Shown here piece by piece: positions 1,672 through 20,186 of a stretch of DNA of 20,186 bases. Within the stretch, counting starts at the first letter, position 1. Every line of letters begins with the position of its first letter. The stretch covers positions 1 through 20,186 of IMG/VR virus record IMGVR_UViG_3300021492_000046, one strand, 5' to 3'. The notes beneath the pieces are model-generated. The model worked only from the letters and a program-made list of their open reading frames with translations, had not been told where the DNA came from and did no database searches. The DNA comes from a virus. Made by a program: the position numbers and the translations under genes.

Positions 1672-2165
1672 AGGATACGACCCCGATTCTTGTTAAGAGC
1701 ACAACAAAGCAGAAACTTTCGGAGGCAAAAGAGATCCTTCGAAAGACTTGGGATGACTTCCTTGTTTACCTTCTTGAGTTTTATATTTCCCACGCAGATG
1801 AGGACGACAGGGAGTTAGACAAGGCTGATGTGATGCGCTATTGCATCTCTTCTCCTGACACGAGTTCACTCGAGTTCCATAGAGATCAGCTTACGAAGAT
1901 TCTTACCGATTTAGAACACACGTACGCAACAACCGGCGATCCAAAAGACAAAGCGACAATTGCTGAGAAGATTGCTCGTATTAATGCCTCTCTTAAAGAC
2001 ATTTCAAAAACTGATGAAAGTAGTCGAGTACTTGAAGAGATAGCTCAAATAAAAAAGAACAGATTAAAAATCTTAAAGAATATAGCTCCAACAAAAACTG
2101 TAAAACGAAATGAAGATAAAGAAGAGATATCGGAAACTGAGAGTGAACAAGAAGCAAATAATTAA
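1668..2165 (+). CDS. Small RHH-like/coiled-coil protein, candidate small terminase subunit
   Basis: 165 residues, charged, with no sure family match. Residues about 7-40 read like a ribbon-helix-helix DNA-binding unit: a short strand (I-L-V-K-S-T) followed by T-K-Q-K-L-S-E-A-K and then W-D-D-F-L-V-Y-L-L-E-F-Y. Residues about 60-145 are rich in Leu, Ile, Lys and Glu and look helical to coiled-coil. The last 20 residues are acidic and polar. The start ATG overlaps the upstream TGA. The gene lies directly before the large terminase gene and overlaps its start by up to 56 bases. In tailed viruses this slot usually holds the small terminase subunit, a DNA-binding oligomer that recognises the packaging site. 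That role is inferred from position and the putative DNA-binding start only. Confidence 0.5.
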   Translation: MKDTTPILVKSTTKQKLSEAKEILRKTWDDFLVYLLEFYISHADEDDRELDKADVMRYCISSPDTSSLEFHRDQLTKILTDLEHTYATTGDPKDKATIAEKIARINASLKDISKTDESSRVLEEIAQIKKNRLKILKNIAPTKTVKRNEDKEEISETESEQEANN

Positions 2166-4761
2166 GGTCATTTGTGATTATTGTGGAAAGGAATACGAGG
2201 TCACTGAGCAAGTTTACTATGCTAAGATGCGACAGGGCTTTAGATACTTCTTCTGTTCGGAGCAGTGTTTGGCTCGTGCTCGTGCAGAATACTTATGGAA
2301 CCGTAAAGCGCCAGTTAACATTCCTGATGAGCTTAAAGAAGAGCCTGAAGTTGAAGTATCTCTTATACCGGGGGATATGCAAGGCTTTTGTTACTACTGT
2401 CATCGACGAATCCCAAAGTCAGCAATATTCTGTGAGGAACATGCAACCAAAGAACATCTTGCAATATTTGAAGCAACTCAGGAATTACCAGTTCACCCAA
2501 GAGGTTGGTGGTCCTACGAAATAATTAAGGATTGGCTTTCTGGTTACAAGAAGATTCTTCTAAAAGCTCCGTCTGGAACGGGTAAGAGCGTTCTTGAGGA
2601 CATTATGGCGTATTTGAATTTGACACTTTTTGATAATTCCTTCACTCTCATAGGTTCAATTTCAATGCCAATAGCTGTACAGCACATAGATAGGATTCGT
2701 AGTTGGGTTGCGATGTCACCTTTCAGAAACCTCATAGTGTATGACAGTAAAGAACAGATAAAACTCAAAAACGGCTCAAGAGTCTTAGCAATAGCACAGA
2801 ACGAGAAAACACGAGGTGGTTATCATCCAGATTTGATTCTCTTAGATGAGTTGGCACGAATCCGTCCTTCCTCATATTACGGTTTGTTTTATCAGATGGG
2901 CAAAACGAAAGGAGCGACTGAAATAGGGGTTTCAACTCCGTTCCTCAGCTGCTATGATGATCAAACAGAGGTGCTCACAGAAAATGGATTTAAGTTGTTC
3001 AAAGATGTAGATTTGAACGAAAAAGTTGCTACTATGAATTTGGATACCGAACAGTTAGAATTTCAGTATCCATTAGAAAAGCAAGTATATGATTATGATG
3101 GCTATTTAATCAGTCTAAATACTAAGGGAATAAATTTAAATGTTACGCCCAATCACAGAATATACTACATCGGTCAATGGGCGTTCCGAAACAAGAAAAA
3201 AAGTTATAAATCATGTCGAGCTGATCAGCTCCTTCCCGAGTATTGTATCCATATTCCCAAAGTGCCATTACCAACTGAAGGTAAGGATGTGCCCTATCTA
3301 AGAGTTCAAAAAAATGTTATGGAATTGAGGAATGGACACGGGGCATTTAAGAAAGTCGATAAAGCGTTTGATCTGCCTATGGATTTATGGCTTGAGTTCT
3401 TAGGATACTTTTTAAGCGAAGGTTCTGTCGAGAAAAAGGGAAGAATTAAAATATCCCAGAAAAAATTTAAAGATAGGATGTTCAAGTGTTGTAAACAAAT
3501 AGCTACTTATTTTCACAGAAAGGGAGAAGAGGGGCAAGATTATTTTCGTATTCAGAGTCCTCAATTATATAAGTTGCTGAAAGGGGAAAAACGCATCCCG
3601 GATTATGTGTTTGGTTTGTCCCTAAGACAGCGAAAAATTTTCTTGGACGCGTTTTCGCTTGGTGATGGAAGTCAACAAAGTCGCAAATACAATGAATATA
3701 TGCTTTTTCTGAACTATCCCAAGGAGAAGGCTTTGGGGGACGATTTGCAACGACTGCTTATTACTATGGGCATACCCACAATTGCTCGTGTGAAAAAAGG
3801 TAATGGGAGTTGTTTAGTGATTTCTGGAAACTCCAAACGGTACGCGGATTTAAGGAAAAGAGAAGAAGGAAAAGATATTTCACGAAAATATTATAAAGGA
3901 AAAGTCTATTGTTGTACTGTTCCTAATCACACTCTGATTGTGAGAAGGAAAGGAAAAGTTTCAATTTCAGGAAACTCAGGACCTTTTCTCAAGCTTTGGT
4001 ATTCAGGGACAGCACGAAATTACGCGGTAAAACTTGAAGACTGTTGGTTTATCACTGAAGAAATGATAAGGGATGCTCAAAAAGACATGTCTCCCTCCTT
4101 TTTTGATCAGGTATTTAAAGCTGAATTTGTAGCAACCTCTAATAGAGTGATTCCAGATGAGCAACTCCTTAACGCTATTACGGATACAAGATCGAAATAT
4201 ACAGGAGAAACAATAATGGGTCTCGACTTTGGACGCAAGCGAGATCATACAGCATTGGTAGTTCTTAATGATAAGGGTCATGTCATATACACCGAAATTT
4301 TGCCTCTCAAGACAACTTGGCGAGAACAATATGCCATAATACGCGATAGAACAAAAAAATTTAATCCCACCACGATATATGCGGATCAGACATCGATTGG
4401 TGATCCCATACTGGAGGAACTTTCGGACCTTCCGATTGAGCCTGTCCTAATGTCTAACGATAAATTAAAAAAGAAGATTATTGACAATTTGGTTTTGTGT
4501 TTTGCTTATAATTCGATTCACATACCTAAAGATGAACAAAAGTTGATTGATCAGCTTTCAGCTTTTGTATATTTAGACGACAACTTAAGTAAGTGTGGTC
4601 CCGAAGGAGGAGCACATGACGACCTTGTGGATGCGTTGGCTCTCGCCTCCTTGGGACTCGAACGACATATTGATGAGGAAGAAAATACGGACAGTTGGGG
4701 AGCGATTGGTGGAGAACAGTCGCTTGATGTGGAGGAAAGTCCTTGGACAATTGTATGGTGA
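2110..4761 (+). CDS. terL: Terminase large subunit with N-terminal zinc fingers, intein-interrupted
   Basis: DNA-packaging motor ATPase and nuclease. The 883-residue precursor would give 541 residues after removal of an intein (residues 281-622). N-terminal zinc fingers: C22, C25, C49, C53 and C94, C97, C108, H111. ATPase: Walker A A-P-S-G-T-G-K-S at 153-160 and Walker B D-L-I-L-L-D-E at 241-247. The coupling motif V-S-T-P is followed three residues later by the intein. RNase H-like nuclease: D706 in G-L-D-F-G, D759 in Y-A-D-Q, and D837/D838/D841 in A-H-D-D-L-V-D. ATG 2110 gives a 56-base overlap with the upstream gene. GTG 2143 is an alternative that keeps both zinc fingers and shortens the overlap. 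The tandem N-terminal zinc fingers are not part of the usual core terminase. Family call is very firm. Confidence 0.96.
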   Translation: MKIKKRYRKLRVNKKQIIKVICDYCGKEYEVTEQVYYAKMRQGFRYFFCSEQCLARARAEYLWNRKAPVNIPDELKEEPEVEVSLIPGDMQGFCYYCHRRIPKSAIFCEEHATKEHLAIFEATQELPVHPRGWWSYEIIKDWLSGYKKILLKAPSGTGKSVLEDIMAYLNLTLFDNSFTLIGSISMPIAVQHIDRIRSWVAMSPFRNLIVYDSKEQIKLKNGSRVLAIAQNEKTRGGYHPDLILLDELARIRPSSYYGLFYQMGKTKGATEIGVSTPFLSCYDDQTEVLTENGFKLFKDVDLNEKVATMNLDTEQLEFQYPLEKQVYDYDGYLISLNTKGINLNVTPNHRIYYIGQWAFRNKKKSYKSCRADQLLPEYCIHIPKVPLPTEGKDVPYLRVQKNVMELRNGHGAFKKVDKAFDLPMDLWLEFLGYFLSEGSVEKKGRIKISQKKFKDRMFKCCKQIATYFHRKGEEGQDYFRIQSPQLYKLLKGEKRIPDYVFGLSLRQRKIFLDAFSLGDGSQQSRKYNEYMLFLNYPKEKALGDDLQRLLITMGIPTIARVKKGNGSCLVISGNSKRYADLRKREEGKDISRKYYKGKVYCCTVPNHTLIVRRKGKVSISGNSGPFLKLWYSGTARNYAVKLEDCWFITEEMIRDAQKDMSPSFFDQVFKAEFVATSNRVIPDEQLLNAITDTRSKYTGETIMGLDFGRKRDHTALVVLNDKGHVIYTEILPLKTTWREQYAIIRDRTKKFNPTTIYADQTSIGDPILEELSDLPIEPVLMSNDKLKKKIIDNLVLCFAYNSIHIPKDEQKLIDQLSAFVYLDDNLSKCGPEGGAHDDLVDALALASLGLERHIDEEENTDSWGAIGGEQSLDVEESPWTIVW
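2950..3975 (+). other. Intein with LAGLIDADG endonuclease domain, in terminase
   Basis: An in-frame 342-residue protein-splicing element (residues 281-622 of the precursor). It starts at C281 after F-L-S and ends at G621-N622 before S623. Block A is C-Y-D-D-Q-T-E-V-L-T-E-N-G-F. The block B T-x-x-H is T-P-N-H. The end reads V-S-I-S-G-N, then Ser as the +1 nucleophile. Two LAGLIDADG-type helices are present: L-G-Y-F-L-S-E-G (431-438) and L-D-A-F-S-L-G-D-G (512-520), both with acidic residues, so the homing endonuclease could be active. The residue before the terminal Asn is Gly instead of the usual His, a known tolerated variant. The joined host sequence would be S-T-P-F-L-S/S-G-P-F-L, right beside the ATPase coupling motif. 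Confidence 0.95.
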
Positions 4762-7756: not shown

Positions 7757-8752
7757 ATGAAAACTCCTCTTTCCTCTATTTTTAATTTTGGAGCGATCCC
7801 CTCTCCTTGGGATAAAAGAGACGTTATATATGCGGCTCTTACTTCAAAGGAAAAGCCAGAGGTATTTAGTCTTAAGGAATACCAAGGACCGGTAGTAGAC
7901 CAAGGTCCTCGACAGATATGCGTTCCTTGTGCGTTGTGTGCAATTGTAGAGTCAAAACAATTTTACAATACTAATTTGTCTGAATGTTACATTTACAAGC
8001 GTCGTTCCCATAAGGGAGATGGCATGGTGCTGAGGAACGCTCTCAAAATTATGCAAAAGGAAGGCACTTGTCAAGAAATGTGTTTTCCGTTGTCTACGTG
8101 TCAAGAACGATGCAGTGAAAGCTCAATTAAAAAGAACGCCCTATCTTATAGGATAGGAGAATACCATAGAGTATTCAATGATATTACCGGTACGATGTAT
8201 ATTCATAAGCTACCAGTATTTGCAGCCGTTCCTGTGTATGATAATTGGTCTTATGATGCTCGTATACCAATGCCCTCTGGTGAATTCTTAGGTTTTCACG
8301 CTATTACGATTGTAGGATATAACCTCACAGAGAAATATTATGAATTCAAAAATTCCTGGGGAACAGAATGGGGGAATGGGGGATACGGGGTGTTGCCTTT
8401 AAACTATCCGATAGCTGAAGCATGGATAGTTGAGCCGAGACTTGGGAATGATTACGATGATTTGCTTCCTGATGACATAACAATTAAAAATACAATATGT
8501 GGCATGTCCATATTTGGGCTTGGTATCGAACTCGAGATTACTGTTCCTTGGGACTGTATTGTAAGACCCAACTTTGGAATATTTCGATTTCCACGTACGC
8601 TTCATAAAGGCACGAATTCAGTGATGTTTAGAGTTCCATTTAAGAAAGGTTCACAACCACTAAGTTTAACCTTTAAGCATAAGAATTCTTATATTAGAAT
8701 GTCTGCTACTCTTTCTAATACCATTCAATTGAGTGAGTGGGAAAGAATTTAA
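7757..8752 (+). CDS. Papain-like (C1-type) cysteine protease
   Basis: 331 residues with all four papain-family active-site elements in order: Q49 (oxyanion hole) in V-V-D-Q-G-P, C55 six residues later (the papain Gln-to-Cys spacing), H181 in G-F-H-A-I-T-I-V-G-Y, and N199 in F-K-N-S-W-G-T-E-W-G-N-G-G-Y-G. Residues 1-40 are not a full propeptide. There is no signal peptide, unlike the gene before it. Cysteines at 55, 58 and about 61, and several near residues 110-120, may form disulfides or a metal site. Residues about 235-331 form a separate beta-rich tail of unknown type. The start is one base after the preceding stop, with AGGAG just before it. It is distinct from the prohead protease. A virion-carried or host-directed protease is possible; the substrate is unknown. 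Confidence 0.88.
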   Translation: MKTPLSSIFNFGAIPSPWDKRDVIYAALTSKEKPEVFSLKEYQGPVVDQGPRQICVPCALCAIVESKQFYNTNLSECYIYKRRSHKGDGMVLRNALKIMQKEGTCQEMCFPLSTCQERCSESSIKKNALSYRIGEYHRVFNDITGTMYIHKLPVFAAVPVYDNWSYDARIPMPSGEFLGFHAITIVGYNLTEKYYEFKNSWGTEWGNGGYGVLPLNYPIAEAWIVEPRLGNDYDDLLPDDITIKNTICGMSIFGLGIELEITVPWDCIVRPNFGIFRFPRTLHKGTNSVMFRVPFKKGSQPLSLTFKHKNSYIRMSATLSNTIQLSEWERI

Positions 8753-8758
8753 ATTAGA

Positions 8759-11700
8759 ATGAGCTTGCGAGTAACATTTCTCGGAGTAAATGCAGAAGCA
8801 AAGGGACATTCCTGTATATTGATTGAGTCTCCTAAAGCGAAAGTTCTTTTAGAGCCCACCCAGCGAGTTAAGGATGTCGATGCTGTTATAATCGCGGATA
8901 TAGACAAAGATGAATATAGCGAATGGAAATATTATGCAGACCAAGGTGTTCCGATATATTCGGTAGCAGCAATAAAGAGATGGGCAGAAGATAACAAGCT
9001 TCGTGAGCACATTCAAGTGATAAGCAACAAGTTCTCAATTAAGGGTCTTCACATGAATTGGCTAACGGCTAATGTTGCTCCTCATGAACCAGCAGGTGGA
9101 GTTAGAATTCCAAGTTATGATGTGGATATAGTGCCTGAACTTCCACCTTATATTCCTCAAGCTTTAATAAAGGCATTCGGATTGCCACCGTCTCATATCA
9201 TTGTTGGTATTGGCTCTTATAAGAAGTCTGATCATAAAATATCATTTGAGGATTTTCTTCTTCAACTTGAGAAAACCAGAAGTGGTAAGGAGAAAGGTCT
9301 TTTGTCCATTACTCTTACAAACTTCAGGAAGGATCTGAAGGAGCATAAAAGTGAAATTCTCAGAAGACTCAAAGAGAAATGGGACGTTCCTATCTTTTGG
9401 GCAGAGAAGGGAATGATTCTTGAGTTCTCACGAAGTGGTCAAGTGGAGAGAATTGACTCTTCAAATGAAATTGAAAAGCTTCATCTCAAAGAATTTCTGT
9501 CCAAAGGAGTTGATTATGACATAAAGCACGTTAAGACAAGGTGGAAAGAGTGTATAGCGGATTTGCGGTATTTGGCTAATAACGCCGTACCTCGCTTGAA
9601 AGCAGGAAAGAAATGGGGTGAATGGACTCTTGACGCGTGCTATAAATATTTTGCCGCTTTGATAGACGCTCTTCGTAGTGTGCATTTTACGCTTGTTCCT
9701 CCTACTCAACCTGAGCTATACAAAATAGAGCATCCCAATAAAGATCCTAAGGAAGCACTTAAGACTTCTTTCTGGCAGACATATTTAAAAGCTAAGAAAT
9801 ACATGAAGTCCAAACCTCCCAAAGACGAGGAGGAATTAAAAGAGTGGAATAAGAAGCGAACGAAAATAATAAGTACGTCTGAAGAAATGAAGAGCCTTAA
9901 AGTCGGATACCTCTCCAAGGCTAAACCATATTTACGATTCTTCCTTCCTACCATTCACGAAGATATTGCGAGTGCTGGATGGGATGAAAAGAAGCTCCTT
10001 ATTGATGTTAAAGCCGATGGTCTGAGGATCACTCTCTGGAAGTCAAGGGGTAAAGGATACGTGTTTGTAGATCCCGAAGAATTGAAACACAAGTCCCCAC
10101 TAATAAACAAATATGTTCCTCAGATAGTGAAAGAAATTGAGGAGCACTTCCCCGATAATACAGCTCTTGATGGGGAACTTTATGCGGCGAGAGGTAATAA
10201 AGCTCTACACAGAACTGTCATAAATGGAATTATAAATACTAAGCTTCCTCCTGAAAGATTCATACCTTATACTTACGCCTTTGCTTTTGACGTCCTTATA
10301 TACAAAGGTAAGGATGTGCGTGATAATCCTCTTGAGGAGAGATTAAAGTTGCTTCGTGCCTTTAAATCCACGTCTCATATCAAAATAGAAAAGGTATCTA
10401 ATGTGGTTGTTCCCGGCTACTCTGGATATGTGGTTAGCGGAAACAATAAGAGTGCGATAGACAAAGCCATTCGCTTGATAGAGACATCAAAGCATAATTT
10501 ACATGAAGGTGTGCAAGAAGGTATAATGGTCAAAACTTTAGATCATCCATACGAAGTTCCGACTAATAAAGGATGGTGTCTAAAGGGTGGCTCTTACATC
10601 CTAACTCCTGATGGGTTCATGAGTATAAATCAACTCAAGTCGGGAATGCAGGTCTTATCATCAGACGGAAAGTTCCATTGCATCAAAAATGTATTCAAGA
10701 GAAAAATAACAGATCGTGATGTAATAGTAGAAATAAATAATCATTATTCACCAAAAGTAAGACTTACAGCGGATCACGAGATCCTTACCAACAGGGGATG
10801 GTCTAAGGCAGAGGAAGTAAAGTCACTCTATTCTCCAATTCTTAATGTTGATATTTTGGAAAATCCCCCAGCAAAGATTGAGCTCGAAATGTATGGATAC
10901 AAAAAGACTATAATTCCAGATGAAAGATTTTATAAATTGATTGGCTTTATTCTCGCTGAAGGTTCTTTGGTGAATGCTTCAAATGAAATCGAAAAGTCTC
11001 TTAGTCACTCTTCTAAATGGTCTGGAATACGAATCTCTAATAATGAAGATATGACTTGGGCAATCGAGATTATCCGAGATATTTTGCATGTGCAACCACA
11101 CAGCTATACGTATGATGGTAAACGCATAGTGGAATTCAAAGATCCTCCATTCGCTCGATGGTTCTATGATACATTTGTATTCAAGCATGGCAGAGAACAC
11201 TATAAACATAAGATACGCTGGAAAACTTTGAGTATTCGACTTCCTTTGTGGTTTGCTAAGATTACAGAGGAACAATGGCGTTCTTTTTTAGAAGGCTATT
11301 GGCTTGGTGATGGAGCAAAAGAGAGAAAATATAGAATCGGAACGTCTTCTTCGTATATGGCTGGCACTCTTTATTTGATTGCTAAACTTCGTGGTTGGGA
11401 CGCAACCGTAAATTGGAAAAAGACATCAAGAGAGCCCTCGTTTCTGATTTATATTTCAAAAACTCCTATTTTTAGATCACTCAAGCCTTCTATCCGAAAG
11501 ATTCCCGTCACTTCTTTTCATAGAGAAAGTGACTACCTTTACGATTTAGAAATCGAAGGGGAAGAATCCTATTCTAACGGAGAAATTGTGTTTCATAACT
11601 CGAAATGTAAGCTATGGCATGAAGTTGATACTGTGGTATTAGATAAAAAGTTGGTAAAAGGACAAACTGATGTGTGGAATTATTATTTAGGTATCGAAAT

Positions 11701-12193
11701 ACCAGCCGGATATGCTAAGATGATGCTTGACGACACTCAGGCGTATAAACGTGTTCGATGTTTGTATAATGGTCATCTTTATAAGAAGAAAGAGTGTCAA
11801 GATTATTTAGACAGACGAGGTGCTCGATTCTTTATGGAATACGGAAAGTCGGATAACACAAAAATTAAGTGTGATGTTGGAGACGTTCTCAGAGTGTCCT
11901 CCGAAGAAGTCCTCTATAATGCAAATGAAACCCATCCAGAATATCCGTATTATACAGGATACATAAATAGGGCGATGGAACCAGTACCAGAAAGAAAGAC
12001 TTCTGATAATTTAGTCGTGTTGCACCGTCTTGCGTTACTTGAGCCTCAGCGAATACCACTGGAGGTTTTAGCGAAGTGGAAAGAAAATATGCCTCCAGAA
12101 ATTAAGAAGTATTGTGAATATATTAGGTCTTTGTCCACCCCGAAACTAATTCAATTTTATAATGCACTGAAGAAGGTTCAAAATGAAGAGTGA
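8759..12193 (+). CDS. ATP-dependent DNA ligase with degenerate metallo-beta-lactamase-like domain, intein-interrupted
   Basis: 1144-residue precursor, 803 after intein removal (607-947). Residues 1-235 follow a metallo-beta-lactamase chain: a V-T-F-L-G opening, a strand I-I-A-D-I-D-K-D-E where H-x-H-x-D-H is expected (here D47, D49, D51, E52), and L-T-N (N188) where L-T-H is expected. A helical region spans about 240-400. The ligase core has the nucleophile motif K418-A-D-G-L-R423, D471-G-E-L, F510-D-V-L, E587-G-I-M-V-K592, and after splicing W606/S-K-C-K (motif V). A C-terminal OB-like region follows. It would seal DNA nicks or breaks through a lysyl-AMP intermediate. The Shine-Dalgarno is weak. 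It overlaps the next gene, a phosphoesterase-like protein, by 11 bases. Ligase call firm; MBL call good from pattern. Confidence 0.93.
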   Translation: MSLRVTFLGVNAEAKGHSCILIESPKAKVLLEPTQRVKDVDAVIIADIDKDEYSEWKYYADQGVPIYSVAAIKRWAEDNKLREHIQVISNKFSIKGLHMNWLTANVAPHEPAGGVRIPSYDVDIVPELPPYIPQALIKAFGLPPSHIIVGIGSYKKSDHKISFEDFLLQLEKTRSGKEKGLLSITLTNFRKDLKEHKSEILRRLKEKWDVPIFWAEKGMILEFSRSGQVERIDSSNEIEKLHLKEFLSKGVDYDIKHVKTRWKECIADLRYLANNAVPRLKAGKKWGEWTLDACYKYFAALIDALRSVHFTLVPPTQPELYKIEHPNKDPKEALKTSFWQTYLKAKKYMKSKPPKDEEELKEWNKKRTKIISTSEEMKSLKVGYLSKAKPYLRFFLPTIHEDIASAGWDEKKLLIDVKADGLRITLWKSRGKGYVFVDPEELKHKSPLINKYVPQIVKEIEEHFPDNTALDGELYAARGNKALHRTVINGIINTKLPPERFIPYTYAFAFDVLIYKGKDVRDNPLEERLKLLRAFKSTSHIKIEKVSNVVVPGYSGYVVSGNNKSAIDKAIRLIETSKHNLHEGVQEGIMVKTLDHPYEVPTNKGWCLKGGSYILTPDGFMSINQLKSGMQVLSSDGKFHCIKNVFKRKITDRDVIVEINNHYSPKVRLTADHEILTNRGWSKAEEVKSLYSPILNVDILENPPAKIELEMYGYKKTIIPDERFYKLIGFILAEGSLVNASNEIEKSLSHSSKWSGIRISNNEDMTWAIEIIRDILHVQPHSYTYDGKRIVEFKDPPFARWFYDTFVFKHGREHYKHKIRWKTLSIRLPLWFAKITEEQWRSFLEGYWLGDGAKERKYRIGTSSSYMAGTLYLIAKLRGWDATVNWKKTSREPSFLIYISKTPIFRSLKPSIRKIPVTSFHRESDYLYDLEIEGEESYSNGEIVFHNSKCKLWHEVDTVVLDKKLVKGQTDVWNYYLGIEIPAGYAKMMLDDTQAYKRVRCLYNGHLYKKKECQDYLDRRGARFFMEYGKSDNTKIKCDVGDVLRVSSEEVLYNANETHPEYPYYTGYINRAMEPVPERKTSDNLVVLHRLALLEPQRIPLEVLAKWKENMPPEIKKYCEYIRSLSTPKLIQFYNALKKVQNEE
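10577..11599 (+). other. Intein with LAGLIDADG endonuclease domain, in DNA ligase
   Basis: A 341-residue in-frame intein (precursor residues 607-947). It begins C607 (C-L-K-G-G-S-Y-I-L-T-P-D-G-F) right after W606 and ends V-F-H946-N947 before S948. Block B is T-A-D-H-E-I-L-T-N-R-G-W. The penultimate His and terminal Asn are canonical. LAGLIDADG helices are L-I-G-F-I-L-A-E-G (727-735) and L-E-G-Y-W-L-G-D-G (844-852), with the acidic catalytic positions kept, so homing activity is plausible. The insertion point splits ligase motif V (W-S-K-C-K after joining), so the ligase cannot be complete until splicing happens. Confidence 0.95.
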
Positions 12194-14228
12194 ACTCACA
12201 AACACTCAGAATGTGAATACTCTACTCGAATTGGTAGAGTCGGAGCTCAATTATAGACACGCGAAAGGATTGCACATTCCAAATAGAGGAATGTATCTAC
12301 CCTCACCACACGCTAAGCTTATCCATGATGGTCACAAGACAGTAATTCTCAAGGATAGGAAATTTAAAATAGTAGGCGTTCCATTCCTTTACTGTGACAA
12401 TAAATATGCTTATGGTGTATTAGAACTTAAAGAAGCAAAAGAAATTAAGATAGAAGGGCAATTTAAGGCTCTCCAGAAATATCATAGAGTAACCAAGAAA
12501 GAGTTTGAAAATTGGAATTGGTCATTTCCCCTTTACGCTTATTATATTAAAGAGGTTCACAATTTTAAGAAGCCTGTAAAGATTAACCTTCCTCAAGGCG
12601 TGCAAAACTTTATTAAGAATCCAGTTCAATATTTGGAAGATAGCGAGTATCCATTTACCGGTAAGCATGAATTATCTCTTCCTTTACAAATAAATTGTCC
12701 TAACTGTGGAAGGTGGATATATGTTCCACATTCTCCAATTCCGTCTGATTGTCCTTATTGTGGTTATCAATTGAGAGGAGTGGAAGAAGAAAAATCACGG
12801 ATGGTTCCTCTTCCAAAAGAAGAATACTCTCGAATAGTTAAGGATTATCCTCTTAAACCTTTACCTAAGAAATATTATAAGGATCAAAGAGGAGGAGTGG
12901 CTTGGTGCTTTGCTTCTCCTCGAACAAAAATCCTCACGGAAGGTGGATGGAAACCTTGGAATAAGATTTATCCGGGCGAGAAAGTCCTGACTCATAAGGG
13001 TAGGTTCATGCGAGTCACACGAAAAGATGTGTTTGAAGGCATTTATGACTGGATTAAGGTTCACCTTCAGTTTGATAACATAAAGGACCTCAAATATGAT
13101 ATTCGAGTAACCGAAAATCATCCCTTCCTCACGACCGAGGGTTGGAAGGAGGCAAAAGACTTAAAGGTTGGCGACAAGATTGTTTCAAAAACACCCAAGC
13201 GTTGTCTTAATTGTCGGGCTCCGATTCCACTCTCATGGAATGCAAAAACAGACTTTATGTTCTGTAGTGATGAATGTGCACGAAACTATGAGTGGACAGA
13301 AGAGAGTTTGCACACTGAGTACATTGATAAACAAATTTATGATAATCCTCTTGCTGATGTCACGGTTACAGTTGTAAAAATAGAAGGGATTAAGATTCCA
13401 AAGAACTCTACCGTATGGACACAAACTCATGCTTGTTCTTTAGAGGTAGAGGAAGACCATTCTTATATGACTCCTTTGGGATTCTCTCACAATTCACAAT
13501 GGCACATAAGAGGCATAAAACCAGAAGATAAGGAAGCGTTTGATAAAGGTGAAATATCCTTCGAGGAAATGATTTTACGTCACAGTCTTCATCAAGACTT
13601 GAGATGGAAATTAAACGGCGTTTCAGTCCTTCCTCAGTGCACAATTACCGAAAGTGATGTGAAGTCCTATGTGAGAGGAATGCTTGGGCAACTTAATCCA
13701 GAACAGAAAGGTCCTGCTAATGTTCAAAAAGTTAAGGTTATTCCCAAAGTAGAGGTCGCTAAACCTACAATGCCTAAGTCTAAAATAAAAGAATTCTTAA
13801 TAGACAAGGAAGGGGCTAAGCTCATTAATAAGATAATAATTCACGAAACTTCTTATTGGATTAGTCCTGGAGAAATAGGATCGCTTCCGTACACTTGGGC
13901 TTATATGGGAACTGTATGGACGGGGAAAGTAGAGACTGGCGTTGAGAGATTTGACATGCATGAGCTTTTCTTTTATCCAGATAAGGATTTGCCTGAGCCA
14001 AATAAAAAATTCTTTGATGGGCGATTCATACTAAGAGCCTTTAGAGGTGAAGCAGCACGAGGGGGCAAAACATGGTGGTTGTGGAAGTCCACTAAAAATC
14101 CTTATCCACAAAACCCTTGGTGTTATTGTGACCAAGGTGAACACGAAGTTCTTCCTCTTGATAAGATAAAGCATTGGGGACATGAAGATTATCCTGAATG
14201 GAAGACAAGAAAGGACGAATGTGAATAA
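12183..14228 (+). CDS. ASCH-like / zinc ribbon / LigD-type phosphoesterase-like protein, intein-interrupted
   Basis: 681-residue precursor, 485 after removal of a mini-intein (242-437). Residues about 30-135 resemble an ASCH/PUA-like domain: S-P-H-A-K-L-I-H-D-G-H-K-T, then Y-G-V-L-E-L-K-E-A-K-E-I, then Y-A-Y-Y-I-K-E-V. A zinc ribbon follows (C172, C175, C190, C193). The spliced part then reads W/S-Q-W-H441-I-R-G, a charged loop, and R-H467-S-L-H470-Q-D472-L-R474. This resembles the H...LHYDLR core of the LigD 3'-phosphoesterase, which trims 3' ends to a ligatable hydroxyl. The later part has S-P-G-E-I-G-S and a W-W-L-W-K-S-T strand. The start overlaps the ligase stop by 11 bases, suggesting coupled translation. 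The phosphoesterase assignment rests on motif pattern and neighbour; a purely DNA-binding role is possible. Confidence 0.7.
   Translation: MKSELTNTQNVNTLLELVESELNYRHAKGLHIPNRGMYLPSPHAKLIHDGHKTVILKDRKFKIVGVPFLYCDNKYAYGVLELKEAKEIKIEGQFKALQKYHRVTKKEFENWNWSFPLYAYYIKEVHNFKKPVKINLPQGVQNFIKNPVQYLEDSEYPFTGKHELSLPLQINCPNCGRWIYVPHSPIPSDCPYCGYQLRGVEEEKSRMVPLPKEEYSRIVKDYPLKPLPKKYYKDQRGGVAWCFASPRTKILTEGGWKPWNKIYPGEKVLTHKGRFMRVTRKDVFEGIYDWIKVHLQFDNIKDLKYDIRVTENHPFLTTEGWKEAKDLKVGDKIVSKTPKRCLNCRAPIPLSWNAKTDFMFCSDECARNYEWTEESLHTEYIDKQIYDNPLADVTVTVVKIEGIKIPKNSTVWTQTHACSLEVEEDHSYMTPLGFSHNSQWHIRGIKPEDKEAFDKGEISFEEMILRHSLHQDLRWKLNGVSVLPQCTITESDVKSYVRGMLGQLNPEQKGPANVQKVKVIPKVEVAKPTMPKSKIKEFLIDKEGAKLINKIIIHETSYWISPGEIGSLPYTWAYMGTVWTGKVETGVERFDMHELFFYPDKDLPEPNKKFFDGRFILRAFRGEAARGGKTWWLWKSTKNPYPQNPWCYCDQGEHEVLPLDKIKHWGHEDYPEWKTRKDECE
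12906..13493 (+). other. Mini-intein carrying a four-cysteine zinc-finger insert
   Basis: A 196-residue in-frame intein (precursor residues 242-437) from C242 (C-F-A-S-P-R-T-K-I-L-T-E-G-G-W), after A-W, to H436-N437 before S438. Block B is T-E-N-H-P-F-L-T-T-E-G-W. The C-terminal block is A-C-S-L-E-V-E-E-D-H-S-Y-M-T-P-L-G-F-S-H-N. No LAGLIDADG motif is present. In the usual endonuclease position lies a short insert with C341-x2-C344-x16-C361-x3-C365, a zinc-finger pattern ending F-C-S-D-E-C. Whether that is the remnant of a different nuclease type or a stand-alone DNA-binding insert cannot be told here. Confidence 0.92.
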
Positions 14229-14259: not shown

Positions 14260-17200
14260 ATGGGTTGGTTATCCGGTTATGAATATAGGAAGAAAGTAAC
14301 CATTTCCGGTTCGAGTGGAGCCGGAGAAAATTATCAAGTTAAGCTAAGAATTGGTTCATCCTCTGGTGGGGATTTCCACTTGGAAGGACATTGCATAGAT
14401 TTTCCGAATGATATTCGCTTTACAGATGATGATGGTGAAACTCTTTTAGACTACTGGATAGAAGACTCTACTCAAGATCCAATTACGGTTTGGGTGAAAG
14501 TCAAAGATAATCTGGATAACAACGTGGATATTTACTGTTACTACGGCAAAAGTGGTGAGAGTTCTGCAAGTGATGGCAGTGCTACTTTTGAATTTTTCGA
14601 TGATACAGAACAAACAGTAGGAGAAGGTGTTGTAATTACAAGCTGGAGCTTCAATGCAATTGGATACGTGATAGAATGGAAAGCAGAGACTCCATCCTCA
14701 GACGGGTTTGCTGCTTATCTTACGGATGCTAATGGTGATGTCAATGGTGCTAATTTTTACGTTGACGATGGCGGAGACGGTAAAGTTAAAGAATATGATG
14801 GATCTTTTCACACGATAGCAGATAGCTTCACTGAACCTGTGATTTTAGTCACTAAATTGATAAGCACTTCCACTTTAGATTATCAAGTTTATAATCCTGA
14901 CAGAACTTTGGCTGGAGAAATAACAGGAGCAAATTACAGAGGTTCTCCAACCAGAATTGACACCCTTTGGACGGGTTCTTCAAGTAGTAAAAATTGGCAA
15001 ACTCACTTTCATTGGCTATTCATACGCAAATACGCTTCTCCAGAGCCCTCTTTCAGTAACGTAGGAAGTGAGGAGATAGAGCACCTAACTTGTATAGATG
15101 TGGTTAGATCATCGGATACGGCTTTTGGTGGCGGACCCATACAAGGGAGCTGTACTGACATTTTGGACTTCATATCTTTATCGTCTCGTTATTCCCCTTG
15201 GCTTCTGGGATTTGCTTATAGAAGAGCAATTAAGATTTCAGGTTCGAGCGGAGCTGGCACGGGTTATCAAGTTAAACTGAAAATCGGTTCTTCTTCTGGA
15301 GGAGATTTTCATTTGAATGGGCATTGTGATAATTTTCCAAACGATATTCGTTTCACAAAAAATGACGGACTCTCCCTTTTAGACTACTGGATAGAAGATC
15401 CTTCGCAGGATCCTATCACAGTATGGATAAAGATTGAAGACAATTTAAACGAAGATGTAAACATATTTTGCTATTACGGAAGCTCTCTCGCTGAGTCCGA
15501 GAGTGATGGTAATGCCATATTCGAGTTTTTTGAGGACTTTGAGGGTGGAGATGTAGAATACGTTGCTACTCCAAGTAACAAAACCACTGATGGATTTTGG
15601 CATGCTGCACCAAAAGTCACAATAGCCGATAATGGTGATTGGGTGATGTGCTATAACAATGGAGGAGAAACAAACGACACAGAAGTAGGAATCGGGATTA
15701 GCACTGATAACGGAGAGACATGGACAAATAAAGGCTTAATATCAAATAATCCCAATTATTTCTGTGGTCAACCTTTAGTCATAAAATATCCTAATGGTAA
15801 ATTACAGTGTTTTTGGAATCTTCGTGATACTACAAAAGATTATAATACACCAGAAGCTTGGGGAGGCACTGAAGTTAGTACATCAACAGATAATGGTCAA
15901 ACTTGGTCTTCGCCGGAACATGCTCATCCTACTTTGGATGATGATAATATAGTGGCTTGGCAAGCAGTGACGATAGGCAATACTGTTTATTTATCTGCAA
16001 CTGCACATGTTGGAGACCCCATAGTCTTTAAAAATGTGCTTTACAAAACTGAAGATAATGGTGAAACATGGACTAAAGTGAGTGATATTACACCAAGCGG
16101 GTACACAGAAGGCGGGATGGTGCATTTAGGAAATGGAGAATTTGTGGTAGTTAATAGGGATTTTGATAAACAACATACGCTCCAGAGGCGGAGTACCGAT
16201 TATGGCGAGACATGGACAACAGACGGCTACATTAAGACAGACGGTTCATTAGGCTCGTCTCCCGGAGGCAGTGATTTAATTTTGCATCAAGCGAGGATAT
16301 ACAATTTGGGTGATTATATCATAATGTACGCTGCTCGGTATCCCGGTTCTTATCCTCGTGATGTTATGCTATATTTCAGCACAGACGATTGTGCTTCTTG
16401 GAAAGCTGGTGCATCTGAGATTTATCATGGAATAAGTGGTACAGAGGGCGATTACGTTCCTCTTTCTCTGAGTGAGGGAAAGCTTTTAGCTGGTTATGAC
16501 AGGCGATGTGATATTAGTATAGAAAGTGTACTTTCTTTATCTGGTTGGACAGTTACTAATGAGAATGTAGGTGAGTTAAAAGGAGTGAGTTCTCTGGTTA
16601 AACACGGTAATTATGCGGCAAGATGGTATTGCAAAGCTACGGGAGAGGCATACGCGTATAAAACAATACCCGAACTGCGTGATCAAGATAAGATTATTGA
16701 GTTCTGGAGGCGGGGAGGGGGTTATTCGGGAGAAGATGTAACATCTTCAGTGATTGGATTAGATAAAAGTTCAGATATCTACAACGGGATAAAGCTATAT
16801 TACAACGCTGAAACACATGAATTTCAATATTACGATGATGCTTTTCATACCATATTATCAGGGGTAGATGATTCAGTGTGGTACAAGTTTGGAGTTAAGG
16901 TGTTTAGTGATGGTGATGACAGTAAATTTGATCTTTGGATAGACGATGAGAAGAAGGTAACTGGAGGTGGAACGAGAGGAAGTATTAATTCAGTTGTATT
17001 ATTCCAGTTTCAACACAAGACATCAAAGAATGGTTGGGTAAAAGAATATGTGGATGCAATTCGCGTTCGCAAATATGTCGAGCCAGAACCGTCATTTAGT
17101 AGTGCTCAAGATGAAGAAGGACCTGTGTTTACCTGTGGAGACACGCTTGCAAATTCTTCATTATCTGCTATTCAAAGAGAAGTCTTTCCAGTGTGTTCCG

Positions 17201-18399
17201 AATTATTGAGCTCTTCAGACTTTTCCAATTCTCTTCTTTCAACGATCTCTTGTTCTCAAGACTTATTAGGATTGACAGACTCGAATATCGCTTTAGTTAC
17301 TCTTTTGCTCAATGCAATTGACTCAATAGACGTCAGTGATGGTTGCACTCTTACTTTCTCATTTACATCATCTTGTTTGGACGTGTTACACACCATTGAT
17401 AGTGCCTCTTATCCATTGCCAAATGTGGTTAGTTGCTTAGATAGCTTGGGAACTCAAGACTCCATTTCGTCATTCCTCTCGATGTTATGCCAAAGTAAGG
17501 ACAATATTGGAGGAGCGGATGGTGAAACGTCTCAACTTTCAGTTGAACGAGCATTGCTCGATATTCTTGCTTTCCAAGATACTTCCTCCTATCTTGCAGG
17601 TATTATTGCTTCGGCTTCCGATGTTCTTAATGTGCAGGATTTGAATAGTATTCGTTTAACATTCTCTTGTTCAAGTATAGATGTTGTTAAGAACACAGAC
17701 AGCGGGGGAGTCAATGTTACATTCCACTTGGATGGAAATGACATACTCAAAGGAGCAGATTTTGTTTCTGGTAATCTCCAAGTTCTCCTTGACTCTTTAG
17801 CAGTCTTTAAGAGTTCAGATCAAAGTGCTTCTTCTCTATTAGGTTTCATTTTAAGATCAGCCACTGATGTACTTGATGTGTATGATTTGAACTCAGCCAC
17901 GCTTCAGATATCCTCTTCTTCGATAGATATCTTCAGGACAGAAGATAATTCTTCTATTAATATCACGCTTCATTTAAATAGTGCAGATGTCTTTAAGAAT
18001 TCTGATTCAGCGATTCTCAGTTTACAAGCTCTTCTTAGTGCATTAGAAACACTCAAGGCTGGTGATAGTAGTACAGCATCAGTATTTGCCGAGATATTAG
18101 CTTCGGCATCTGATTTGCTTACTACTTCCGATTATAACACGGTTCGTTTAGAGTTCCTTGGATCTGCAATTGACATAGTTGAGTCAGTAGATAACGCTTC
18201 TTCCAATGTTACACTTCATTTGAATAGTTCGGACCTGCTTGGCGGAACGGATAGAGTTACAGCTAAGCTCGAAGCTCTTCTTAGTGCTATATCAAAATTC
18301 AAAAGTTCAGACGAATCTCGAACCTATGAAGTTATATACGGTGTTCCTGTGAAAATATTTAAAGCTCAACACAAAGTCTTGGTATTTAGAGCAGAATAA
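14260..18399 (+). CDS. Giant modular fibre-like protein: two DUF2341 modules, sialidase-like propeller, C-terminal repeat stalk
   Basis: 1379 residues, probably a receptor-binding or glycan-processing virion protein. Order: DUF2341 module 1 (about 1-110; G-Y-E-Y-R-K-K-V-T-I-S and D-Y-W-I-E-D); a lectin/LamG-like beta domain (about 110-272); two spacer repeats (about 277-314); DUF2341 module 2 (about 315-430); a beta-propeller (about 431-757) with Asp boxes at 481, 542, 597, 645 and a degenerate one at 707; a second LamG-like domain (about 760-955); and a roughly 400-residue array of 20-residue repeats. The Asp boxes suggest a sialidase-like fold. I cannot place the sialidase arginine triad, and H-A-A-P stands where the R-I-P motif is often found, so the enzyme activity is unproven. 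ATG 14260 is well placed for DUF2341 but has no Shine-Dalgarno. No signal peptide or anchor. Confidence 0.8.
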   Translation: MGWLSGYEYRKKVTISGSSGAGENYQVKLRIGSSSGGDFHLEGHCIDFPNDIRFTDDDGETLLDYWIEDSTQDPITVWVKVKDNLDNNVDIYCYYGKSGESSASDGSATFEFFDDTEQTVGEGVVITSWSFNAIGYVIEWKAETPSSDGFAAYLTDANGDVNGANFYVDDGGDGKVKEYDGSFHTIADSFTEPVILVTKLISTSTLDYQVYNPDRTLAGEITGANYRGSPTRIDTLWTGSSSSKNWQTHFHWLFIRKYASPEPSFSNVGSEEIEHLTCIDVVRSSDTAFGGGPIQGSCTDILDFISLSSRYSPWLLGFAYRRAIKISGSSGAGTGYQVKLKIGSSSGGDFHLNGHCDNFPNDIRFTKNDGLSLLDYWIEDPSQDPITVWIKIEDNLNEDVNIFCYYGSSLAESESDGNAIFEFFEDFEGGDVEYVATPSNKTTDGFWHAAPKVTIADNGDWVMCYNNGGETNDTEVGIGISTDNGETWTNKGLISNNPNYFCGQPLVIKYPNGKLQCFWNLRDTTKDYNTPEAWGGTEVSTSTDNGQTWSSPEHAHPTLDDDNIVAWQAVTIGNTVYLSATAHVGDPIVFKNVLYKTEDNGETWTKVSDITPSGYTEGGMVHLGNGEFVVVNRDFDKQHTLQRRSTDYGETWTTDGYIKTDGSLGSSPGGSDLILHQARIYNLGDYIIMYAARYPGSYPRDVMLYFSTDDCASWKAGASEIYHGISGTEGDYVPLSLSEGKLLAGYDRRCDISIESVLSLSGWTVTNENVGELKGVSSLVKHGNYAARWYCKATGEAYAYKTIPELRDQDKIIEFWRRGGGYSGEDVTSSVIGLDKSSDIYNGIKLYYNAETHEFQYYDDAFHTILSGVDDSVWYKFGVKVFSDGDDSKFDLWIDDEKKVTGGGTRGSINSVVLFQFQHKTSKNGWVKEYVDAIRVRKYVEPEPSFSSAQDEEGPVFTCGDTLANSSLSAIQREVFPVCSELLSSSDFSNSLLSTISCSQDLLGLTDSNIALVTLLLNAIDSIDVSDGCTLTFSFTSSCLDVLHTIDSASYPLPNVVSCLDSLGTQDSISSFLSMLCQSKDNIGGADGETSQLSVERALLDILAFQDTSSYLAGIIASASDVLNVQDLNSIRLTFSCSSIDVVKNTDSGGVNVTFHLDGNDILKGADFVSGNLQVLLDSLAVFKSSDQSASSLLGFILRSATDVLDVYDLNSATLQISSSSIDIFRTEDNSSINITLHLNSADVFKNSDSAILSLQALLSALETLKAGDSSTASVFAEILASASDLLTTSDYNTVRLEFLGSAIDIVESVDNASSNVTLHLNSSDLLGGTDRVTAKLEALLSAISKFKSSDESRTYEVIYGVPVKIFKAQHKVLVFRAE
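14308..15540 (+). repeat. Tandem duplication of the DUF2341 module within the fibre gene
   Basis: The stretch starting GGTTCGAGTGGAGC at 14308 recurs as GGTTCGAGCGGAGC at 15241, an offset of 933 bases (311 codons), and the match continues through the D-Y-W-I-E-D segment to F-E-F-F. The downstream LamG-like domains also end alike: R-K-Y-A-S-P-E-P-S-F-S-N versus R-K-Y-V-E-P-E-P-S-F-S-S. The unit that was copied was therefore probably DUF2341 plus LamG. The retained nucleotide similarity suggests a fairly recent event. Confidence 0.85.
17128..18318 (+). repeat. Array of about twenty 20-residue repeats with a 246-bp superperiod
   Basis: The C-terminal part of the fibre protein resolves into about twenty units of roughly 20 residues, pattern x-x-D-h-h-x-x-x-D followed by about 11 mixed residues with alternating hydrophobics (h = hydrophobic). 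In the last third the units group in fours. The first member of each group starts at residues 1117, 1199 and 1281, exactly 82 residues (246 bases) apart, and equivalent positions resemble one another more than neighbours do. Two related units also sit between the duplicated modules (about residues 277-314). This looks like a stalk or trimeric beta-structure region; the structure is inferred. Confidence 0.85.
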
Positions 18400-19515: not shown

Positions 19516-20186
19516 ATGCAATTTTCAATAATAGTTGCGACAAACCGTGGACCTGAACTCTTAAAATATTTATTTGTCTCTACACATCCTGAGAGTGAGC
19601 TCATAGTAGTTGACTCTCACTATAATGAAAAAACAAAAGACTTTCTCTCTCGTCAAGAGGGGTATGGACAGATAGTCTACGCTCCACCTGAGCATTCACC
19701 CTTTAGGTGGCATAGAGACTTTTCTCAGTCTCTTAATACAGCACTGTGTCTTGCTGAGCATGAATATGTTGTACGTGCAGACGACTACATAGAATTCAAG
19801 GAGGACTTCTTTGACGTTGCTGAGAAGGACGTTAAGAGCTACCCAGAGAAGACTCTTATAATAGGACAGAAAGCACAAGAATATAACAAGGAAGAAAAGT
19901 TCATTGACTACATGTCCCAAAGAGGAATAGGTGGAGAATTTAGATATGTAAACATTGAGAACCCAGCGTTCACATTCTCCTTTGGAGTAGCACCTCTTCA
20001 GTTGTACCTTGACCTCAATGGCTATGATGAAAGGTACGATTCTGGTTGGGGTTTTGAAGACAGAGACTTTCTTCATAGGGCACTAAAGGCTGGTTACGTT
20101 GCAATGCTCGATAAGCTTCTTATGGGATATGGTCATGCTCACAAACCAGCTTGGGAAACAATTTCAATGCCTCACATAATTTATGA
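19516..20186 (+). CDS. GT-A fold glycosyltransferase, 3'-truncated
   Basis: The frame from ATG 19516 stays open to the last base of the window (about 223 codons), so the C-terminus is missing. It starts with M-Q-F-S-I-I-V-A-T-N-R-G, a GT2-type first strand. It continues with S-E-L-I-V-V-D-S, then H-E-Y-V-V-R-A-D-D-Y-I, where A-D-D holds the DXD position. Next come G-Y-D-E-R-Y and G-W-G-F-E-D-R-D-F, matching the 'GWG.ED.D' acceptor motif of galactosyl- and N-acetylgalactosaminyltransferase-like enzymes. A late H-A-H may be the usual metal-ligand His. Sugar and acceptor are unknown. It is a second GT-A gene, distinct from the truncated one at the window's start. Confidence 0.85.
   Translation, partial: MQFSIIVATNRGPELLKYLFVSTHPESELIVVDSHYNEKTKDFLSRQEGYGQIVYAPPEHSPFRWHRDFSQSLNTALCLAEHEYVVRADDYIEFKEDFFDVAEKDVKSYPEKTLIIGQKAQEYNKEEKFIDYMSQRGIGGEFRYVNIENPAFTFSFGVAPLQLYLDLNGYDERYDSGWGFEDRDFLHRALKAGYVAMLDKLLMGYGHAHKPAWETISMPHIIY

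Follow-up and report, generated by a model that had tools for sequence, protein, structure and literature searches.

A probable surface fibre of an Ekchuahviridae-like archaeal virus with a probable exchange slot for putative glycan-recognizing propeller cassettes on a conserved DUF2341 scaffold

Bacteriophages are well known to exchange receptor-binding domains: their modular receptor-binding proteins and depolymerase tailspikes join a conserved structural part to an exchangeable glycan-directed part that moves horizontally (PMC8262889, PMC10408124). The fibre described here shares this design, but whereas the phage proteins have an N-terminal anchor and a C-terminal specificity module, its C-terminal stalk is the shared part and its N-terminal half is variable; fibres of this type also differ in fitting several propeller types into one slot. 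Among archaeal viruses of hydrothermal vents, ConA2 lectin domains are gained, lost, or replaced among close relatives in Thermococcales viruses (PMC12934983, a preprint), but these viruses are spindle-shaped, their lectins are membrane-anchored, and the words propeller and sialidase do not occur in the text. The tail-fibre adhesins of Hafunaviridae are likewise encoded by a hypervariable gene tied to host range in archaeal tailed viruses, but they are glycine-rich with hypervariable segments and without propeller-cassette exchange (PMC8651126). The endo-mannanase-like VP4 tailspike of SSV19 allows an archaeal virion to degrade host-surface glycans, a role that some versions of our fibre may share; it differs in belonging to a fusellovirus and in using another domain, and the text consulted describes no exchange slot (PMC12042106). 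We found no description of a DUF2341 scaffold with a fixed multi-propeller slot in the literature searched, in which papers on DUF2341 were represented by title and abstract.

The window analyzed here is the whole 20,186-nt stretch of IMG/VR record IMGVR_UViG_3300021492_000046, and it encodes a two-module ORF of 1379 aa (14260..18399, plus strand, as are all fibre features below; ORF call and Pfam). We read this ORF, with a probability of about 0.75, as a surface fibre, probably of the tail, of an Ekchuahviridae-like virus, in which a conserved scaffold would carry exchangeable cassettes with a glycan-recognizing propeller that are swapped by recombination. The capsid protein of the window has only haloarchaeal tailed viruses as database relatives. 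The 20-kb window is a fragment and contains a single capsid gene, and the related virus genome records G001 (81.8 kb), G005 (80,678 bp), and G010 (71,922 bp) encode two divergent capsid proteins each. Ekchuahviridae are marked by two divergent HK97-fold capsid proteins, each accompanied by a maturation protease of its own; given the two capsid genes of these genomes, and a protease next to the second one in G001, the window virus and its relatives appear to match this family, and the hosts, judged at the family level, would be archaea of deep-sea hot sediments. Two Ekchuahviridae, GBV302 (80.6 kb) and GBV301 (71.8 kb), have two capsid genes, as do G005 and G010, and were assigned to ANME-1 through CRISPR spacers (PMC9894754); a preprint also associates the family with Thermococcales viruses (PMC12934983). 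A term search of PMC9894754 returned no mention of an adhesin, a LamG or concanavalin domain, a receptor, or carbohydrate, so the fibre is seemingly not described there. A Micrarchaeota host was considered and rejected: its sole support is a 15,827-base contig (QMVG01000010.1, locus L053) in a Guaymas MAG, apparently the viral contig of locus L011, while other genomes of the phylum lack such a capsid gene and binning contamination is probable.

PF10102 (DUF2341) occurs twice in the ORF (Pfam, E 3e-34 over the two stretches; 67.7 and 61.6 bits against a cut-off of 23.4), and the two copies are 68% identical. In module 1, the DUF2341 scaffold (residues 1–109, 14260..14586) runs straight into a LamG/ConA-like domain that fills slot 1 (residues 110–255, 14587..15024) and is hypervariable among relatives. 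A linker beginning with RKYASPEP (residues 256–311, 15025..15192) leads to module 2, where DUF2341 (residues 312–420, 15193..15519; Pfam) is followed by slot 2, an exchange cassette without DNA match in close relatives (residues 421–936, 15520..17067). This cassette comprises a sialidase-type beta-propeller (residues 431–759, 15550..16536; Pfam, profile search, AlphaFold2, and Foldseek) and a second LamG/ConA-like domain (residues 760–936, 16537..17067; module comparison and Pfam matches of relatives). The segment downstream of each DUF2341 copy terminates in RKYxxPEPSF, and the second boundary, RKYVEPEP, opens a repetitive C-terminal stalk (residues 937–1379, 17068..18396).

The original prediction of a propeller inserted into a duplicated DUF2341–LamG unit is confirmed by Pfam, by profile search, and by a model of moderate confidence. 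Its place was right, but the size given (about 327 residues, 15550–16530) was slightly short: the insert has 329 residues between FEFFEDFEGG and LSGWTV, the point at which the LamG-like part resumes, as had been noted. The join was also said to read FEDFEGG in both modules; module 1 instead has FEFFDDTEQT, although module 1 of relatives (e.g. L005, FEFFDDFEGTSLDSDKWT) does show an uninterrupted DUF2341–LamG join. Between the two modules, the LamG-like parts show homology at only ~25% identity, with an alignment score of 92 that none of 1000 shuffles reached. In the window itself, the module-2 segment matches no Pfam family, and LamG is a putative label taken from its relatives, whose segments individually match Laminin_G_3, GH16, or CBM_4_9.

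Scored with the pattern [ST]xDxGxTW, the insert contains four exact Asp boxes: STDNGETW (residue 481, 15700..15723), STDNGQTW (residue 542, 15883..15906), TEDNGETW (residue 597, 16048..16071), and STDYGETW (residue 645, 16192..16215), against a mean of 0.0025 expected from shuffled inserts. The same scan found no exact box in the remainder of the fibre protein. Of the five boxes initially counted, the last (STDDCASW, residue 707, 16378..16401) is degenerate; spacing across all five is 48–62 residues. The insert alone matches BNR_2 (Pfam, E 1e-14), and a profile of the insert and its counterpart in L009 retrieves the exo-alpha-sialidase 7lbu (E 3e-22). An AlphaFold2 model of the insert alone, from an 8-sequence alignment, is all-beta and of moderate quality (pTM 0.72, mean pLDDT 64), and Foldseek returns sialidases as its best matches in the PDB (E 3e-12), with predicted viral sialidases and tail proteins among the matches in a viral library. 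By contrast, a model of the whole of module 2 is poor (pLDDT 42), a usable model being obtained only from the propeller alone with the wider alignment, and the domain-in-domain geometry is read from the sequence. On these profiles and this model, the insert is predicted to be a sialidase-type beta-propeller.

Aligned to 7lbu, the propeller has Glu617 (16108..16110) where sialidases have their catalytic Glu, and Arg633 (16156..16158) and Arg700 (16357..16359) in place of the second and third arginines of the triad; of the Tyr/Glu nucleophile pair, Glu617 is aligned and Tyr732 sits one column off. The domain therefore shares with GH33 sialidases (7lbu, 1eur) a propeller with Asp boxes, the catalytic Glu, and 2 of 3 Arg positions, but differs from them at the first arginine, which is replaced by Ala449 (15604..15606; RIP to AAP) and is also missing in L009 and several related phage propellers. 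Because of this replacement, canonical sialidase activity of the window propeller is unlikely; it more probably binds a glycan, or cleaves some sugar that is not ordinary sialic acid, than acts as a classical sialidase. The proposed glycan-cleaving or glycan-binding head thus survives as the best functional reading, while its strict sialidase form is doubtful.

An alignment search with DUF2341 recovered 19 viral loci and one with the stalk added more, while direct pattern searches of viral contigs with the window protein or the insert found no relatives. Six loci are close relatives (L005, L006, L007, L008, L009, and L011), the stalks of these and the window fibre being 77–90% identical in amino acids and the flanking DNA 82–95% identical. 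DNA matches to these relatives end at ~14604 and at 15539–15545, and restart at 15013–15028 and 17059–17066—i.e. in both slots similarity is lost at the end of DUF2341 and returns at or just before RKYxxPEP. Compared segment by segment, relatives share DNA identities of 75–81% in the first DUF2341, ~42% in slot 1, 69–84% in the second DUF2341, ~42% in slot 2 (except for L006 and L011, 78%), and 77–89% in the stalk; in these gapped global alignments ~42% DNA or 25% protein identity is about the level of unrelated blocks (L007 against the others). Local searches back real homology for only some slot-2 pairs, namely L006–L011 (79%), L005–L008 (31%), the window and L009 (25%), and L008–L009 (21%), with L005 and L008 linked more weakly to L006 and L011, and only a short match between the window and L008 (32% over 81 columns). 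The stalk tree places L007, L008, and L009 in one group and the window, L005, L006, and L011 in the other, and sialidase-like and BNR_4-like propellers are present in both. In G001 and G005 the second capsid protein is 100% identical over 328 residues, whereas the slot-2 blocks are only 24% identical.

The occupants of slot 2 are diverse. L009 carries a sialidase-like propeller (7e-19 to 1eur), L008 a propeller resembling PL25 ulvan lyase and BT3686 (BNR_4), and L005, L006, and L011 carry PL25/BNR_4-like propellers (BNR_4), as apparently does the partial locus L020. Slot 2 of L007 matches 6n1a (1e-18 over 324 residues), which was deposited as "Carbohydrate-binding protein" and which we take to be a GalNAc deacetylase of Flavonifractor plautii. 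In L010, a more distant fibre whose stalk is of another kind, FG-GAP repeats occupy the slot position. Because the sugar-targeting propellers in this one slot differ so much among close relatives, the head with which the virus recognizes sugars seems to change through swaps of whole domains. Fibre homologues without a propeller were sought and found: these are L012, L013, and L014, module 1 of L005, L006, and L009, and three units in a second gene of G001. The open, propeller-free DUF2341–LamG unit is the default, because direct joins recur in L012–L019, in that second gene, and in the cellular proteins L054 and L055.

One cassette also occurs in a bacterium. A Myxococcota MAG (titled Deltaproteobacteria) encodes a lipoprotein-like ORF in the order DUF2341, propeller, LamG, RKYVSPEP, and its propeller+LamG block matches the L008 block at 57–60% identity across all 560 residues, while its DUF2341 is only ~40% identical to the viral copies. 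The contig appears chromosomal, because the neighbouring genes read from sequence as nitroreductase, metallo-hydrolase, and alanine dehydrogenase. The match extends over the whole block, and the stretch from FEFF to RKY therefore probably travels as one piece; in at least one case it appears to have moved between a bacterium and an archaeal virus, in either direction. We accordingly treat propeller and LamG as one putative cassette and the site as a recurrent exchange slot rather than the scar of a single capture. The anatomy, the propeller type, the varied propellers in one slot, and the cassette shared with a bacterial chromosome are all directly supported. A phage record matched by the insert (MT836487) was discarded: the sialidase-like ORF there stands alone beside a glycosidase-like ORF, on an unverified faecal contig that is probably bacterial DNA.

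L011 has a single module, in which a module-1 DUF2341 is joined to a cassette 79% identical to slot 2 of L006. Recombination between two DUF2341 copies would be the simplest account of the lost module, because the L011 stalk lies within the two-module group. PF00078 and PF00589, taken as marks of a diversity-generating retroelement and a tyrosine recombinase, were unmatched in nine virus records, so homologous recombination in the conserved flanks would be the simplest mechanism of exchange. A profile search likewise found no silent spare sialidase-like cassettes elsewhere in the virus records.

The original prediction had explained the insert by a sialidase-like domain captured after the duplication; the corresponding rival reading is a single capture, between DUF2341 and LamG, of a domain that acts as a sialidase. 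A sialidase-type propeller at an otherwise direct join, and the restriction of propellers to module 2 in two-module fibres, would suit such an event. But close relatives hold unrelated propeller families in the same slot, propeller and LamG are replaced together, one such block sits in a bacterial chromosomal protein, the single-module fibres L010 and L011 have propellers, and the first catalytic arginine is missing; a single capture is thus improbable. Its converse, a propeller ancestral to both modules with module 1 as the shortened copy, draws on L010 and L011, in which a module-1-type DUF2341 is followed by a propeller. The single module of L011 looks derived, however, because of its L006-like cassette and its stalk inside the two-module group, and propellers are absent from the outlying single-module fibres L013 and L014 as well as from L012, L015–L019, and the second gene of G001, which makes an ancestral propeller very improbable.

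Exchange is suggested by mosaics among metagenome contigs, which could also have arisen in other ways. A single ancestral propeller might have changed rapidly within its slot under diversifying selection, with no replacement: the propellers of the window and L009, both sialidase-like, share 25% identity, L005 and L008 share 31%, and part of the propeller diversity could be old divergence because the BNR_2 and BNR_4 profiles cross-match weakly. Yet L007 and L010 match no sialidase profile, the flanks are 75–90% identical with sharp edges, and the L008 cassette is nearer to the bacterial protein than to any viral cassette in the set, so we hold divergence alone to be quite improbable. Assembly chimaeras of mixed, closely related virus populations are the least probable source of the mosaics. 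Every relative is a metagenome contig, and a conserved flank beside a variable block is a classic site of misassembly, but the IMG sample ids of most relatives are different, the DUF2341 flanks diverge by 16–31% in DNA, which is too much for false joins by identity, and the same architecture lies on a bacterial chromosomal contig. A long open frame also spans both junctions in each, the sole stop being an in-frame TAA between modules 1 and 2 in the fibre of the L008 virus (L039, 7931–7933); this could be a nonsense change, a sequencing error, or the sign of a two-part fibre.

Exchange of whole cassettes remains our preferred reading, and for the location on the virion, the receptor role, the recombination mechanism, and the substrate we infer the following arrangement. 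The DUF2341 modules of the N-terminal half and the repetitive C-terminal stalk would form the scaffold, and each exchangeable cassette would sit between a DUF2341 end (FEFFDDF) and RKYxxPEPSF, with slot 1 taking a LamG/ConA-like domain and slot 2 a beta-propeller and, after it, a LamG-like domain. The propeller would be the glycan-recognizing head, some versions of which may also trim or cut host-surface glycans; that of the window would be a sialidase-superfamily propeller without the canonical first arginine. Specificity would shift when recombination in the conserved flanks replaces an entire propeller+LamG cassette. The stalk is the likelier virion-proximal end, because it is the common part and is kept even under a wholly different head, and the heads would then lie on the N-terminal half. 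This other head belongs to L030 (5987–7609, in G010), where a window-type C-terminal stalk follows an N-terminal LamG-type domain with no DUF2341.

Phage proteins contain relatives of the sialidase-like, 6n1a-like, and BNR_4-like cassettes, and several of these are annotated as neuraminidase, minor tail protein, or tail spike. These relatives support a glycan-binding or glycan-processing function, and a receptor-binding or glycan-processing head is the best explanation. The fibre gene lies between the capsid and tape-measure genes, so its product could instead decorate the capsid or form a head fibre, attaching virions to surfaces or particles rather than determining host range. Two observations fit this: the terminase, portal, and capsid genes precede the fibre gene, with the tape measure and tail-tip-like genes of G001 lying ~20 kb beyond it, and the tail-tip-like gene has three DUF2341–LamG units of its own. 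Against it, three of the cassette types have relatives in phage proteins annotated as tail proteins or tailspikes, and the exchange follows the pattern of host-range determinants (PMC8651126); a head fibre is unlikely, although it is the most credible of the alternatives.

We are also somewhat inclined to regard the DUF2341–RKYxxPEP slot as a general platform of head-tailed viruses of hydrothermal-sediment archaea, which would swap whole glycan-active propellers (sialidase-like, ulvan-lyase-like, 6N1A-like, and FG-GAP) from a pool shared with bacterial surface lipoproteins. If so, one recombination event could reset what a virus binds. The recognition of uncultured hosts, e.g. the ANME-1 methane oxidizers, by archaeal tailed viruses becomes accessible to experiment through a fixed slot with different propellers in similar viruses: every cassette is a domain complete in itself, suited to expression and assay against glycans of archaeal surfaces, and its type can be set beside the hosts that CRISPR spacers indicate. 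The findings suggest that archaeal viruses, too, exchange receptor-binding domains, on a different scaffold and with the polarity reversed, and that cassettes pass between these viruses and bacteria.

Several further features were observed in these genomes. The second gene of G001 (L049, 4041–9191) encodes 1716 aa, with three direct DUF2341–LamG units and a tail-tip-like C-terminal part; it lies downstream of the tape measure, in an order similar to that of vir519 (L004), a Methanofastidiosa virus. Glycosyltransferase genes lie close to each window end (511–1671 and 19516–20184), with further ones in G001, and the virus may alter glycans besides recognizing them. The structural region of the window encodes a papain-family cysteine protease (Peptidase_C1, 7757–8752). 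The second capsid gene lies at G001:C1 59835–60818, G005:C1 52541–53524, and G010:C1 58857–59840. The first capsid proteins are only 82–84% identical to the window's although the second ones of G001 and G005 are identical, a pattern that suggests recent exchange of the second capsid module.

Intein-like insertions are also present. The one at 10573–11603 of the window, in a DNA-ligase-like gene (8759–12193), is absent from L005, L008, L009, and L011 despite 86–95% DNA identity elsewhere, and others lie in the terminase large subunit (2110–4761) and in the gene preceding the fibre (12183–14228), which has a second insertion of ~1 kb in L006 (1794–2824). Inteins usually reside in enzymes, and the LAGLIDADG intein of L013 (320–3466), which splits the DUF2341 of a viral fibre at VDIY/CYYSNPSA, is thus unusually placed.
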